The notes beneath the pieces are model-generated. The model saw only the letters and a list, made by a program, of their open reading frames with translations, was not told the origin of the DNA and searched no databases. Of a stretch of DNA of 32,286 nucleotides, positions 28,334 to 32,286 are shown one piece after another. Both the position numbers and the translations under genes were made by a program. The number at the start of each line of letters is the position of its first letter. Position 1 is the first letter of the stretch. Origin of the DNA: a virus; IMG/VR virus record IMGVR_UViG_3300027963_000210, positions 1 through 32,286 of that record. The stretch is one strand, 5' to 3'.

Positions 28334-28363
28334 TGCCCCGGCACTCCACCGGGGCATTTTTTT
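28334..28363 (+). terminator. Rightward intrinsic terminator inside leftward operon
   Basis: An 8-bp stem (TGCCCCGG paired with CCGGGGCA, loop CACTCCA) followed by seven T on the + strand. The - strand side has no T run. The orientation stops + strand (antisense) transcription, not the leftward operon. Confidence 0.75.
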
Positions 28364-28849: not shown

Positions 28850-29254
28850 TCACTTCCTTGTGATGGTAAAACTAGGGCGTCCCGGTTTGGCAGTTATTGC
28901 TGCCGCAAACGGTTTGGTGATTGACTCATCTGTTGCTTTCCAAACGGTCATGTTGATTTCCGGCTTCCACCGGAAAACGGTGGACAAATGCTCTTCAGAC
29001 CCAGTTTCGTGGGCAATGACCAGCAACTTGTCAGCGTTGACCGTGCGGTTAACCCGACCTTCAATCTTAATAGCGAAAGGTGACCCGACTTGCACCACGT
29101 TCTCAGTCCCCTCAAACGTCTCCGGGAACTGAACCTTTTTGGCGATCTGGTCTTCGATGTCGCGGCGCATCTCAACGGCAACCTTCTCGGCTTCCTTGTA
29201 GCCGATCCAACGCTCGGCTAGTTCATCTAGTGTGATGTCGTCAAACACTCTCAT
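28850..29254 (-). CDS. Hypothetical recombination-operon protein
   Basis: 134 residues from ATG 29254, which overlaps the stop of the ATPase gene (ATGA). The N-terminal part is helical (DDITLDELAERWIGYKEAEK, VEMRRDIEDQI). The rest is mixed, with KIEGRVNRTVNADKLL and a Lys/Arg-rich end (SFTITRK). Genes of this size and pattern commonly sit between Sak4 and DUF669 in phages. I cannot name the family. A role in recombination (annealing accessory) is inferred from position. Confidence 0.65.
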   Translation of the reverse strand: MRVFDDITLDELAERWIGYKEAEKVAVEMRRDIEDQIAKKVQFPETFEGTENVVQVGSPFAIKIEGRVNRTVNADKLLVIAHETGSEEHLSTVFRWKPEINMTVWKATDESITKPFAAAITAKPGRPSFTITRK

Positions 29255-29922
29255 GATCCAATCTTCCTTATGATGTCGCCCAAATCGGCGTCTTCCCAAA
29301 CATCCAGTTTGCCGCTGCGGTCCTTGGCAAGCCACAACCCATCGCCATCGGTCATCAAAGCGCGGCGGGTCATTCCTTCGGCGTCTTTTTCCACGCGCAA
29401 AGCCAGCACTTCGTCAAAAAAGTAGGGCAGCGACTGGCCGGTCTTGTTACCCGGCATTGAGGGTGCATACAAAACGCGGCCCATCTCGTCCTGAGTCTTT
29501 TCCAATTTTGCCGACATATAGACGTGCTTACCGGGCAAATCACGAAAGCCTCGGATAATGTCGGCCATCTGCTCCTGCATCGCACCATATGCGGCTCGTG
29601 GATCTTTATTGATCTTCTTCTCAGCGTTCAGCACCACCTCGGCGATCTCGCTAATACTGTCAAGCGCCACCGACTCAAACTCTGCCGCTTCGGTGCTGCT
29701 AGTCAGCCACTTGTAAGCCTCCCTAAGATCATCCATGCTCGTAATCTCAATGAACGGCAAATTAGTATCTGCAATCGATAGCAAACCGCCTTCGGCACTC
29801 AAAATGACCGGCGTTGGCAGGGTTGGAATAAGACTGGTCTTACCCGCGCCGGCTTGACCGTAAACCAGAAGCTTTACCGCCTGGGCGGTGGCTTCTTTCG
29901 TGCGCTTTAACTGAATTGCCAT
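29251..29922 (-). CDS. Sak4-like recombination ATPase (AAA_24)
   Basis: 223 residues from ATG 29922, with GGAGG 7-8 bases upstream; the longer in-frame start would cross the 36-aa gene. Walker A GQAGAGKT (22-29), then a VILSAEGGLLSI strand, and VALDSISEIAEVV (Walker B-like Asp) give a RecA-like ATPase core. Typical Sak4/AAA_24 proteins are small single-strand annealing recombinases. The DUF669 SSB-like and Cas4-like nuclease genes nearby are the expected partners. Confidence 0.85.
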   Translation of the reverse strand: MAIQLKRTKEATAQAVKLLVYGQAGAGKTSLIPTLPTPVILSAEGGLLSIADTNLPFIEITSMDDLREAYKWLTSSTEAAEFESVALDSISEIAEVVLNAEKKINKDPRAAYGAMQEQMADIIRGFRDLPGKHVYMSAKLEKTQDEMGRVLYAPSMPGNKTGQSLPYFFDEVLALRVEKDAEGMTRRALMTDGDGLWLAKDRSGKLDVWEDADLGDIIRKIGS

Positions 29923-30032
29923 CAGATGCCTCCACTTAACGCAAGAAACAAGACGATGGCAGCAGATGCGCCGACCGCAATCGACGCCAAGATAATGACC
30001 CAAGGCGGGTCTTCTTTCTCTTCAAACTTCAT
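29922..30032 (-). CDS. 36-aa membrane peptide at start of early operon
   Basis: A 36-residue ORF: a charged N-terminus (MKFEEKEDPP) followed by a hydrophobic helix at residues about 11-32 (WVIILASIAVGASAAIVLFLAL) ending SGGI. AAGGAG precedes the ATG by about 5 bases. The stop overlaps the Sak4-like ATG (TGATG), so it is translated just before it. It would be the first gene of the leftward operon. Function unknown; perhaps a small membrane-active or inhibitory peptide. Confidence 0.65.
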   Translation of the reverse strand: MKFEEKEDPPWVIILASIAVGASAAIVLFLALSGGI

Positions 30033-30083
30033 GGTTACTCCTTGGTTGAGACCGCACATTCGGGCTATCCGTTCGTGCAGTTG

Positions 30084-30112
30084 TTGCTAGATTAGCGGTT
30101 TCAACGTAGAGT
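30084..30112 (+). promoter_or_regulatory. Weak candidate rightward promoter for cro-like gene
   Basis: On the + strand: TTGCTA (30,084-30,089), 17 bp, TAGAGT (30,107-30,112). Each hexamer matches 4 of 6 bases. It would produce a leader of about 27 bases before the GTG of the Cro-like gene and lies across the first repeat of the operator set. Confidence 0.4.
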
Positions 30113-30117
30113 GTCAA
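30089..30117 (-). promoter_or_regulatory. Candidate early leftward promoter (PL-like)
   Basis: On the - strand: TTGACA (30,112-30,117) and TAATCT (30,089-30,094) separated by 17 bp. The -35 is perfect, the -10 is weak (3 of 6). It would start the leftward operon that begins with the 36-aa peptide. The -35 overlaps one of the 13-bp-spaced repeats. Confidence 0.65.
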
Positions 30118-30131
30118 CAGAAAGTTTCAAC
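30098..30131. promoter_or_regulatory. Three 13-bp-spaced operator-like repeats
   Basis: GTTTCAAC at 30,098, GTGTCAAC at 30,111 and GTTTCAAC at 30,124, each exactly 13 bp apart. Each of the outer copies is a GTT-NN-AAC pseudo-palindrome. They lie between the divergent operons next to the Cro-like gene, and the middle one contains the leftward -35. Likely operators. Confidence 0.65.
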
Positions 30132-30144
30132 CCAAGGGGAAAAA

Positions 30145-30318
30145 GTGACAACAGAAGAAGCGATCAAGTACTTTGGCGGGCTGAAAAAGCTCGCCGATGC
30201 GCTTGGAATATGGCCGCAGGTGATCTATCGGTGGGGTGAACGGCCCCCGATGGCCCGTCAATACGAGATCGAAGTTAAGACTGAGGGAAAGCTGCGTGCA
30301 GACCATGAACAAGATTAA
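30145..30318 (+). CDS. P22-Cro-like repressor
   Basis: 57 residues starting at GTG 30145 with AAGGGG upstream. The helix-turn-helix (about 11-30: GLKKLADALGIWPQVIYRWG) and the following RQYEIEVKTEGKL match the small P22-Cro family in both length and pattern. It would bind the nearby repeats and control the divergent operons. The stop lies 14 bases inside the next gene, so both are read from one mRNA. No CI-type partner is in this window. Confidence 0.8.
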   Translation: MTTEEAIKYFGGLKKLADALGIWPQVIYRWGERPPMARQYEIEVKTEGKLRADHEQD

Positions 30319-32170
30319 AGCCGCCCTGACTTACGCCTCATGGGGCTGGAAAGTTCTACCTGTAGTGCCCAACGGCAAGGTTCCTGCAACCGCCCACGGC
30401 GTCAACGATGCAACCACAGAGCCAGATCAGATTCGGCGATGGTGGACTCAGAACCCAGAGTTCAACATTGGTATTGCTTGCGGCAGCACCAGCGGGATCG
30501 TTGTGTTTGACATTGACCCACGCAACGGTGGGGATGCGAGTTGGGAGCAATGGCTAGAGCAGCACGGGCCTATGCCAGACGGCGCGATGGCGCTTACCGC
30601 AGGTGGTGGACAGCACTACATCGCACGGCATCAAGAGGGCATCCGCTCCTGCAAGCTAGGCGAAGGCATAGATTTGTTGTCAGACGGGCGCTACTACATC
30701 GCCTACCCGTCAACAATCGAGCACCGCGCTTACGAGTGGGAGGCGTCTAGCGATCCGTTTGATGGCATAGCACCTACCAGCATCCCAACCAACTGGTTGC
30801 CGTATCTGGGCCAGCGTAAGGTAGTGCCGACAACCAACGGGGATCTGATTCAAGGCAACCGCAACGATGGCCTAACGAGTCTGGCCGGTGCGATGCGCTC
30901 GTTTGGCATGACCGAAGCCGAGATCCTAGCCGCAATAAGTGTTGCTAACGAGACACGGTGTGAGATCCCATTGCCATCAAGTGAGATTAAGCAGATCGCA
31001 AGGTCAGTCACGCGGTACGAGCCAGACGCAGACGTTGCGGCCAGTAACGCGCTCGGTTCTGCGGCCCTTGACGCGCTTTTTACCCAAGAGGAGACACGCG
31101 ACTACTTCCTGACCCGTGCGACGAGCTTCTTGGGCCAACCAAGCCCTGTGCCGTGGATTGTGAAGGGGTGGTTACCTGCATACGCCACGGCGATGATGTA
31201 TGGCGAGTCAGGAGTGGGTAAGACGTTCGTTGCCTTAGACATGGCTTGCTGCATAGCTAGCGGCATACCGTGGCACGGTATTAAAACGAAGCCGGGGATC
31301 GTTGTGTATCTCGCCGGTGAGGGCAACTACGGGATGCGCCAGCGTATAGCCAGTTGGTGCAAGCGCAACAACGTGGCGAGTTTGGACAACCTGTTGATCA
31401 GCAACAAGGCGTTGGATATGGATGCCCCTGGCGCAGCAGCGCAGGTAATCGCGGCAGTACGGGCTTTGACGCCAGAACCAGTTGTACTGGTCAACATCGA
31501 CACGCTCAACAACCATATGTCAGGCGACGAGAACAGCGCCAAAGACACAAGGGCGATGATCAATGCCTGTAACGTGGTCTCAATGGCCCTGAGCGCCACA
31601 ACCATGCTTGTGCACCACCTAGGACACAACAGCGAGGCAAAACAGCGTGCGCGAGGTTCTAGCGCGTGGCGCGGGGCATTGGACGCGAGTATCTTGGTTC
31701 ACGGCAAGAGCCATGAGGTAATCGTGTCTTGCACTAAGCAGAAAGACGCGCCAGAGCCAGCAGATCTGTTTGGTTGTCTAAGCCCCGTGGATCTGGGTTG
31801 GCAGGACGAAGATGGGTTGCCGCTGCTTGGGGCGGTGTTTGAGATGTTCCAAGAGGGCGATCTGCGTATTCCGACGCCTAAAGCCACTAAGCTAGACGAA
31901 CACAAAACCAACTTAGAGCGGGCTTGGTTTGTTGGCGGTGCGAAAGTTGTGGATGAGATGCCATATGTCAGCAGGGAGGCGTTCAAGACGTTCTTGCTTG
32001 AGCAAGGCATCAAAGCCACCGCAGTTGATCAGCATCTCAAAGCCTCGGCCAAGCCTGGGATGATCGTCAGGGACCTAACTGATGCTGAAATAATAGGCAG
32101 ACATGAGAAAGGTTGGGTGGTTAAGGAAAGGGAATTGGGGTCTAAACTCATTCTAAAAATTATGCCGTAA
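30305..32170 (+). CDS. Primase-polymerase/helicase fusion
   Basis: 621 residues from ATG 30305, overlapping the Cro-like gene by 14 bases; further in-frame starts upstream lie inside that gene and are rejected. The N-terminal prim-pol domain has GWKVLPVVPNGKVPA, the metal-binding DID (69-71), GGGQHY (100-105) and YYIAYPS (130-136). A helical middle (EILAAISVANETRCEIPLPSS, about 205-235) is a primase-C-terminal-type linker. The second half is a RepA/AAA_25-like helicase: Walker A GESGVGKT (300-307), Walker B-like VLVNID (394-399), HHLGHN (437-442) and RGSSAWRGALD (450-460). It probably primes and unwinds phage DNA at the origin. The last codons lie in the first CCGTAAC repeat. Confidence 0.88.
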   Translation: MNKIKAALTYASWGWKVLPVVPNGKVPATAHGVNDATTEPDQIRRWWTQNPEFNIGIACGSTSGIVVFDIDPRNGGDASWEQWLEQHGPMPDGAMALTAGGGQHYIARHQEGIRSCKLGEGIDLLSDGRYYIAYPSTIEHRAYEWEASSDPFDGIAPTSIPTNWLPYLGQRKVVPTTNGDLIQGNRNDGLTSLAGAMRSFGMTEAEILAAISVANETRCEIPLPSSEIKQIARSVTRYEPDADVAASNALGSAALDALFTQEETRDYFLTRATSFLGQPSPVPWIVKGWLPAYATAMMYGESGVGKTFVALDMACCIASGIPWHGIKTKPGIVVYLAGEGNYGMRQRIASWCKRNNVASLDNLLISNKALDMDAPGAAAQVIAAVRALTPEPVVLVNIDTLNNHMSGDENSAKDTRAMINACNVVSMALSATTMLVHHLGHNSEAKQRARGSSAWRGALDASILVHGKSHEVIVSCTKQKDAPEPADLFGCLSPVDLGWQDEDGLPLLGAVFEMFQEGDLRIPTPKATKLDEHKTNLERAWFVGGAKVVDEMPYVSREAFKTFLLEQGIKATAVDQHLKASAKPGMIVRDLTDAEIIGRHEKGWVVKERELGSKLILKIMP

Positions 32171-32273
32171 CTACCGTAACTTACCGTAACTAGCCGTAAC
32201 TGGTTACGGGGGGCAAAGGCGAGTTTACCGTAACGTAACGTAACTCCTCCTATAGGAGTTACGGTAGTTACGG
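32165..32273. repeat. CCGTAAC/GTTACGG repeat cluster with palindrome (candidate origin or operator)
   Basis: CCGTAAC occurs at 32,165, 32,174, 32,184, 32,194 and 32,228 (first four 9-10 bp apart). The reverse form GTTACGG occurs at 32,203, 32,258 and 32,267, with shorter GTAAC at 32,235 and 32,240. The central GTAACTCCT at 32,240-32,248 pairs with AGGAGTTAC at 32,254-32,262 (CCTAT loop), and CTCCTATAGGAG is a 12-bp perfect palindrome. It begins in the stop of the primase gene. This dense set looks like iterons of a replication origin, or a repressor operator; it reaches the window edge. Confidence 0.7.
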
Positions 32274-32286
32274 TACGATGCGGGCG

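Follow-up and report, generated by a model that had tools for sequence, protein, structure and literature searches.

A predicted interlocked divergent promoter, an exchangeable Cro-type regulator, and a covarying leader hairpin at the probable early control region of a P22-like podovirus

The main finding of this analysis is the co-occurrence, in one short intergenic region of a P22-like virus, of a conserved (predicted) interlocked divergent promoter, a small regulator gene that is exchangeable among relatives, and a leader RNA hairpin whose stems covary. We consider it rather probable that a P22-like podovirus devoid of a lysogeny module controls its early genes from this region, in which a Cro-like protein would repress both interlocked promoters (PL and PR), acting as a lytic-only throttle.

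The window (that is, the whole stretch of 32,286 bp analysed in this work) is a linear fragment of a virus record; its left edge falls inside a truncated portal gene, and the terminase-side end of its own genome (a few kb) is absent from the record. The virion-type genes, which include those for P22 portal, P22 coat, and P22 stabilisation proteins, point to a P22-like podovirus with rightward structural genes, to which the phage collection offers, at the DNA level, no nearer match than one short hit (78%). A leftward block (approximately 24-30 kb) contains, on the basis of profile matches, genes for a Sak4-like ATPase, DUF7173, a DUF669/SSB-like protein, a Cas4-like exonuclease, a helicase, and VRR-NUC; the Sak4, SSB-like DUF669, Cas4-like exonuclease, and helicase genes bear out the first-pass annotation, which had described the leftward genes as recombination genes. 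The first conserved gene of this operon is the sak4-like one (29251..29922, minus strand; phrog_124, E 8.6e-55). Between it and the leader hairpin lies a small ORF (29922..30032, minus strand) for a predicted membrane peptide of 36 aa, which is shared by some relatives only; at this site other relatives have a different sequence or sak4 directly. In the opposite direction run the cro-like gene (30145..30318, plus strand; 57 aa, GTG start) and the gene for a 621-aa primase-polymerase with an AAA helicase (30305..32170, plus strand; Prim-Pol, PriCT_1, AAA_25), whose ATG start (30305) overlaps the 3' end of the cro-like gene. Directly 3' of the primase-polymerase stop, CCGTAACT repeats (32174-32275), three of them at 10-bp spacing and accompanied by additional copies of GTAAC and by TAACTCCTCCTATAGGAGTTA in inverted orientation, are iteron-like and might represent a replication origin. 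A strong inverted repeat (TGCCCCGGCACTCCACCGGGGCA, 28334-28356) adjoining an A/T run overlaps the GTG at 28349 that is listed as the start codon of the Cas4-like exonuclease gene in the leftward block, and could control the translation of the exonuclease.

Between the divergent genes lie two predicted promoters. The rightward one, PR (30084..30112, plus strand), is composed of a -35 TTGCTA (30084-30089), a 17-bp spacer, and a -10 TAGAGT (30107-30112), and the leftward one, PL (30117..30089, minus strand), of a -35 TTGACA (30117-30112), a 17-bp spacer, and a -10 TAATCT (30094-30089). The two mirror each other around position 30100.5, with each -35 sharing a base with the opposite -10, so that elements on both strands are embedded in a single pseudo-symmetric block of about 34 bp, as in a bidirectional promoter; transcription would start near 30119 (PR, plus strand) and 30082 (PL, minus strand), about 37 bp apart. 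The first-pass annotation had placed a leftward TTGACA -35 in the middle one of three repeats, and this part of its promoter picture holds, the minus-strand TTGACA (30117-30112) lying inside the second copy; it had overlooked the interlocked rightward promoter and the conserved hairpin of the leftward leader.

A scan for the interlocked geometry found none of 500 shuffles at or above the score of the window. The same pair was matched by at most 4 of 500 shuffles in 20 of the 25 listed regions, which embed several regulator types and include the relative L064 and phages 1N2-2 and PB15; it is weaker in L057 (13/500), L117 (16/500), and L076 (39/500, marginal), and in the remaining two regions (L107 and L070) the scan did not show it. 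In a 72-sequence alignment the TA of the PR -10 is near-invariant (T30107 98%, A30108 100%). The match to the promoter consensus is modest for PR (8/12) and weak for the PL -10 (3/6), which explains why a generic sigma-70 promoter scan of the window called neither of them. In L064, about 40 bp upstream of cro, we also observed a near-perfect mirror promoter, GTTGACATATTA...TAATATGTCAAC, reading TTGACA-17-TAATAT on both strands.

The second component is the regulator. The proposal that the 57-aa rightward gene is Cro-like was confirmed, since its product passes the curated cut-off of the family P22_Cro (Pfam PF14549; 69.2 vs 30.2 bits, E 2.5e-19) and has N15 Cro and P22 Cro (PDB 2hin/6on0 and 1rzs) among its relatives. 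About 100 homologues were retrieved from viral contigs, and conservation of the gene extends, with identities of 68-98%, to dozens of contigs that are otherwise divergent, the recognition helix WPQVIYxWGE being nearly invariant (R/K/T vary at one position). The P22_Cro gene is absent from relatives with a 57-58% identical primase (L065, L066, L068, L073, L074, L076, L078, and L079), in which an unrelated 60-62-aa HTH protein occupies the cro position before the primase; the two such proteins that were scanned, those of L065 and L078, match phrog_18104. In these relatives the hairpin stays, as does the promoter pair in most of them, and the promoter spacer differs (e.g., CTCCAAAAAAATG in L065). 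Small HTH regulators other than P22_Cro at the cro position, as in L065 (1800-2054), L073, L074, L076, L078, and L188 (2896-3066), offer a clean natural swap.

The third component is a two-helix RNA hairpin, CUGCAC-GAA-CGG-AUAGC-CCG-AAU-GUGCGG (30080..30052, minus strand), located directly downstream of the predicted PL start, so that the leftward mRNA would open with it. In 20 distinct sequences its nine pairs are kept at 99.4%, with 23 two-sided compensatory cells, and the covariation score is 0.452 versus 0.144 in shuffles, a value reached by none of 500 shuffles, which as a control leave shared ancestry in. The slid controls collapse and this, together with changes such as CUGCAC/GUGCAG to CACCUC/GAGGUG (L069), makes the covariation hard to explain without pairing. 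An inverted repeat acting at the DNA level is less likely, six of the seven non-Watson-Crick cells (a small number) being G-U on the leftward transcript; the seventh is a non-standard pair. A model of the hairpin has one match in the window and one per genome, at the same place, in relatives. It matches 84 of the 85 relatives searched, many of which were used to build it, and the exception, L064, has a leader of similar fold; the model also matches relatives lacking Cro, none of which was used to build it. An exact-pattern scan of viral contigs yielded 59 stretches, mostly from contigs already in the set, and the Rfam covariance models gave no match to the hairpin up to E 5. Most likely, the hairpin is a 5'-end protector or a recognition element of the early mRNA: its 5'-terminal position fits mRNA protection, and its near-invariant unpaired bases suggest recognition.

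On a broader and more tentative level, which we hold to be possible though short of probable, the hairpin might be an undescribed cis-acting RNA element, with a shape common to unrelated podo- and siphophages, that forms with the interlocked divergent promoter a portable early-gene cassette whose small repressor can be exchanged. Somewhat unlikely, in our opinion, is the idea that the hairpin is an antitermination (put-/nut-like) or protein-binding site exerting the main control on the left operon, with Cro secondary. It would account for covarying stems flanking unpaired bases that hardly change, and for the leaders of the cultured phages CGphi29 and 1N2-2, which likewise fold into two helices separated by a symmetric internal loop, although their stems are unrelated in sequence (in CGphi29 the folding energy alone is unexceptional). 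However, lambdoid phages have put and nut sites for both of their operons, whereas the hairpin is found in the left leader only and has no Rfam counterpart; moreover, the plain hairpin found at the same place in L180 and the larger one in L070 fit a simple 5'-end protection too.

As far as the three repeats are concerned, the earlier observation that they lie exactly 13 bp apart is correct: they begin at 30098, 30111, and 30124, with spacings of 13 and 13 bp. Copy 1 (GTTTCAAC, 30098..30105, plus strand) lies inside the promoter spacer and is lineage-specific; copy 2 (GTGTCAAC, 30111..30118, plus strand) corresponds to the PL -35 plus the last base(s) of the PR -10; copy 3 (GTTTCAAC, 30124..30131, plus strand) falls in the cro 5' leader. 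It had been proposed that these are three operators, and one might imagine a three-site operator whose GTKTCAAC repeats are all occupied by Cro in a cooperative manner, shutting off the leftward operon. An equally spaced three-copy array is indeed beyond chance, as none emerged when the intergenic region was shuffled 5000 times with its dinucleotides preserved, nor when the whole window was shuffled 20 times (unshuffled, the window contains a single further array, CCGTAACT at 32174). Two scans of viral contigs yielded 101 loci with a homologous cro start, corresponding to 74 distinct upstream sequences. Copy 3 is exact in 46 of the 57 close regions (Cro at least ~82% identical), which speaks in favour of such an operator, and in none of the 17 more distant ones. 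Nevertheless, all three copies occur in register in only 2 of the 74 regions (the window type and L009), copy 1 being exact in the same number, so that the full array is local and lineage-specific and surrounds a widely conserved core; the conserved set of similar operators that typifies the lambda/P22 switch between cro and the divergent gene was not found in these 74 regions. The TGTCAAC of the middle copy (30112-30118) is kept in 73 of 74 regions and is 100% conserved in the 72-sequence alignment, as follows from its composition, i.e., the -35 box of PL plus the final base of the PR -10. It persists next to an unrelated regulator in three of the five listed swapped-regulator regions (L065, L073, and L074; it is altered in L076 and L078), hence its conservation is explained by the promoter and the middle repeat need not be a Cro site. 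In addition, copies 1 and 3 vary although the recognition helix hardly changes, and the 13-bp spaced copies are direct repeats, whereas a Cro dimer would be expected to recognise inverted half-sites. Thus, judging from these alignments, the 8-mer repeats are mostly promoter sequence and a minor, lineage-specific part of the region, and we deem a three-site operator improbable. The first cro codons (GTGACAAC, 30144-30156) resemble a fourth repeat (AGTGACAACAGAA), 92% identical to the 13-mer of copy 2 and located 21 bp after copy 3.

The Cro operator itself was not located, since spacer palindromes are not general across the family and spacer and leader repeats do not covary. A palindrome search in 33 distinct spacers found no consistent palindrome, good ones being restricted to L103/L104/L037-type lineages (the spacer is nearly perfectly palindromic in L104 and in the uncultivated phage MW202867), and the pairing of spacer and 5'-leader repeats as Cro sites was discarded because the two are not coupled by lineage (4.68 observed vs 4.57 permuted, sd 0.09). 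If it resides in this block, the specificity for Cro may be determined by the spacer, in which the Cro group has TTTC as a feature (30099-30102 region). In phiKO2 and PY54, the proteins of the P22_Cro family use one operator only and repress the CI promoter, not their own (PMC4997575), so that repression of both promoters by the Cro-like protein is not guaranteed. One might ask whether Cro was merely left over from an ancestor that was temperate, or serves against the operators of other phages (superinfection), leaving the promoter pair unregulated. The lack of a CI partner and of an operator that can be traced by conservation would fit such a scenario; the extent to which the gene is conserved, and the finding that its exact place is filled by a different small HTH gene in the genomes lacking it, argue for a needed local regulator and render the scenario, in our view, about as improbable as the three-site operator.

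The last issue concerns lysogeny. The lack of CI and integrase genes in the window alone is not decisive, because the record is a linear fragment starting inside the portal gene, and complete relatives are needed. Hence the main search covered 20 records, i.e., the window, 17 IMG/VR contigs, MW202867, and CGphi29; MW202867, which shares the layout of the window, is a circular record deposited as complete, and four contigs have terminal repeats of 123-127 bp, which suggests that they are complete circular assemblies. The families of HTH proteins and repressors covered were S24, HTH_3, HTH_19, and phrog_8, and of 14 known genomes searched as controls, between 10 and 14 gave matches. Tyrosine integrase (PF00589), S24, and above-cut-off HTH_3 were found in none of the 20 records (HTH_3 gave two weak sub-cut-off matches, in G013 and G014), resolvase (PF00239) in none of 17, and HTH_19 in none of 12; among these last phrog_8 gave one weak match (G014). 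In the bacterial genome collection, a pattern search returned 15 matches, none of them a relative, and the primase profile four relatives, one of them close and on a 3.1-kb MAG contig, with no prophage copy. The first-pass annotation had seen no CI and had called for a wider search for a repressor or an integrase; this search, extended to up to 19 related records including complete ones, retrieved none beyond these weak matches, and the gene divergent from cro is sak4 or the 36-aa ORF, not the CI-type repressor of lambda and P22. A temperate phage whose repressor escaped detection, or which persists as a plasmid-like prophage, with this region as one half of a genuine lysis-lysogeny switch, seems the least probable of these possibilities: temperate phages (such as N15, PY54, phiKO2) do account for many of the P22_Cro relatives in the phage collection, the window is short of a few kb, and the HTH search covered selected families with the weak matches just mentioned, but neither a recombinase, nor a repressor beyond those matches, nor a prophage copy, nor a repressor gene opposite Cro was found in what was searched. 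The idea of a simplified or lytic switch is instead supported, in the sense of a lytic-type circuit, by a Cro-type gene without CI or integrase, and the source is probably a strictly lytic freshwater phage.

Returning to the lytic-only throttle, we suggest the following sequence of events. PL would drive the leftward recombination operon and PR the cro-like and primase-polymerase genes, both as sigma-70-type promoters that would fire early after infection and compete for the same DNA. Since each -35 overlaps the opposite -10, RNA polymerase should be accommodated in one orientation at a time, and opposed polymerases do mutually exclude each other at bidirectional promoters (PMC12825309). Cro would then build up from PR, bind within or beside the promoter block, and shut both promoters, limiting early transcription; as the promoters coincide, a single operator could serve as both OL and OR, and the single-site action of the phiKO2 and PY54 proteins speaks in favour of this. 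The task of lambda Cro is early turn-down, and this lytic role (turning down pL and pR) would have been kept without CI.

If this idea is correct, Cro-type repressors may have a lytic role of their own, throttling one two-way early promoter rather than being half of a lysogeny switch. The compact cassette would include a 34-bp interlocked promoter, an exchangeable 57-62-aa repressor, and a conserved RNA leader; it occurs in uncultivated freshwater phages, with a related form in cultured marine and halophilic ones, and its covarying leader would be an addition missing from Rfam. A literature search retrieved no paper on a sak4/regulator-primase early-control cassette.

The comparison with known systems places this region among several of them. 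The Cro proteins of P22, N15, PY54, and phiKO2 belong to the same DNA-binding family (Pfam P22_Cro), being small autonomous HTH proteins encoded at a divergent early promoter region; in those phages, however, the gene divergent from cro is that of the CI/CB repressor, whereas here it is a recombination operon with interlocked promoters and no CI was found. The bidirectional promoters described by Warman, Grainger and colleagues (PMC12825309) likewise rely on pseudo-symmetric DNA hosting polymerase in two mutually exclusive orientations, but share a -10 and have starts usually 10, 18 or 23 bp apart, whereas here the -10s are separate, each -35 overlaps the opposite -10, and the distance between the predicted starts is larger. 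MW202867, an uncultivated circular phage from Manatee Spring, has the same P22-like layout, a 75%-identical Cro, and the same hairpin and promoter block and, as here, no annotated CI or integrase; unlike the window, its palindromic spacer (ACCGGATTTCCGGT) embeds no GTTTCAAC repeats. Lastly, the same gene order, with sak4 divergent from a regulator-primase pair, is found in Salicola phage CGphi29, Idiomarinaceae phage 1N2-2, and Alteromonas phages PB15/XX1924. The interlocked promoter pair is present in 1N2-2 and PB15 as in the window and is weaker in CGphi29; a leader hairpin of similar shape, built from unrelated stem sequences, occurs in CGphi29 and 1N2-2, and the latter harbors a different small HTH regulator at the cro position.
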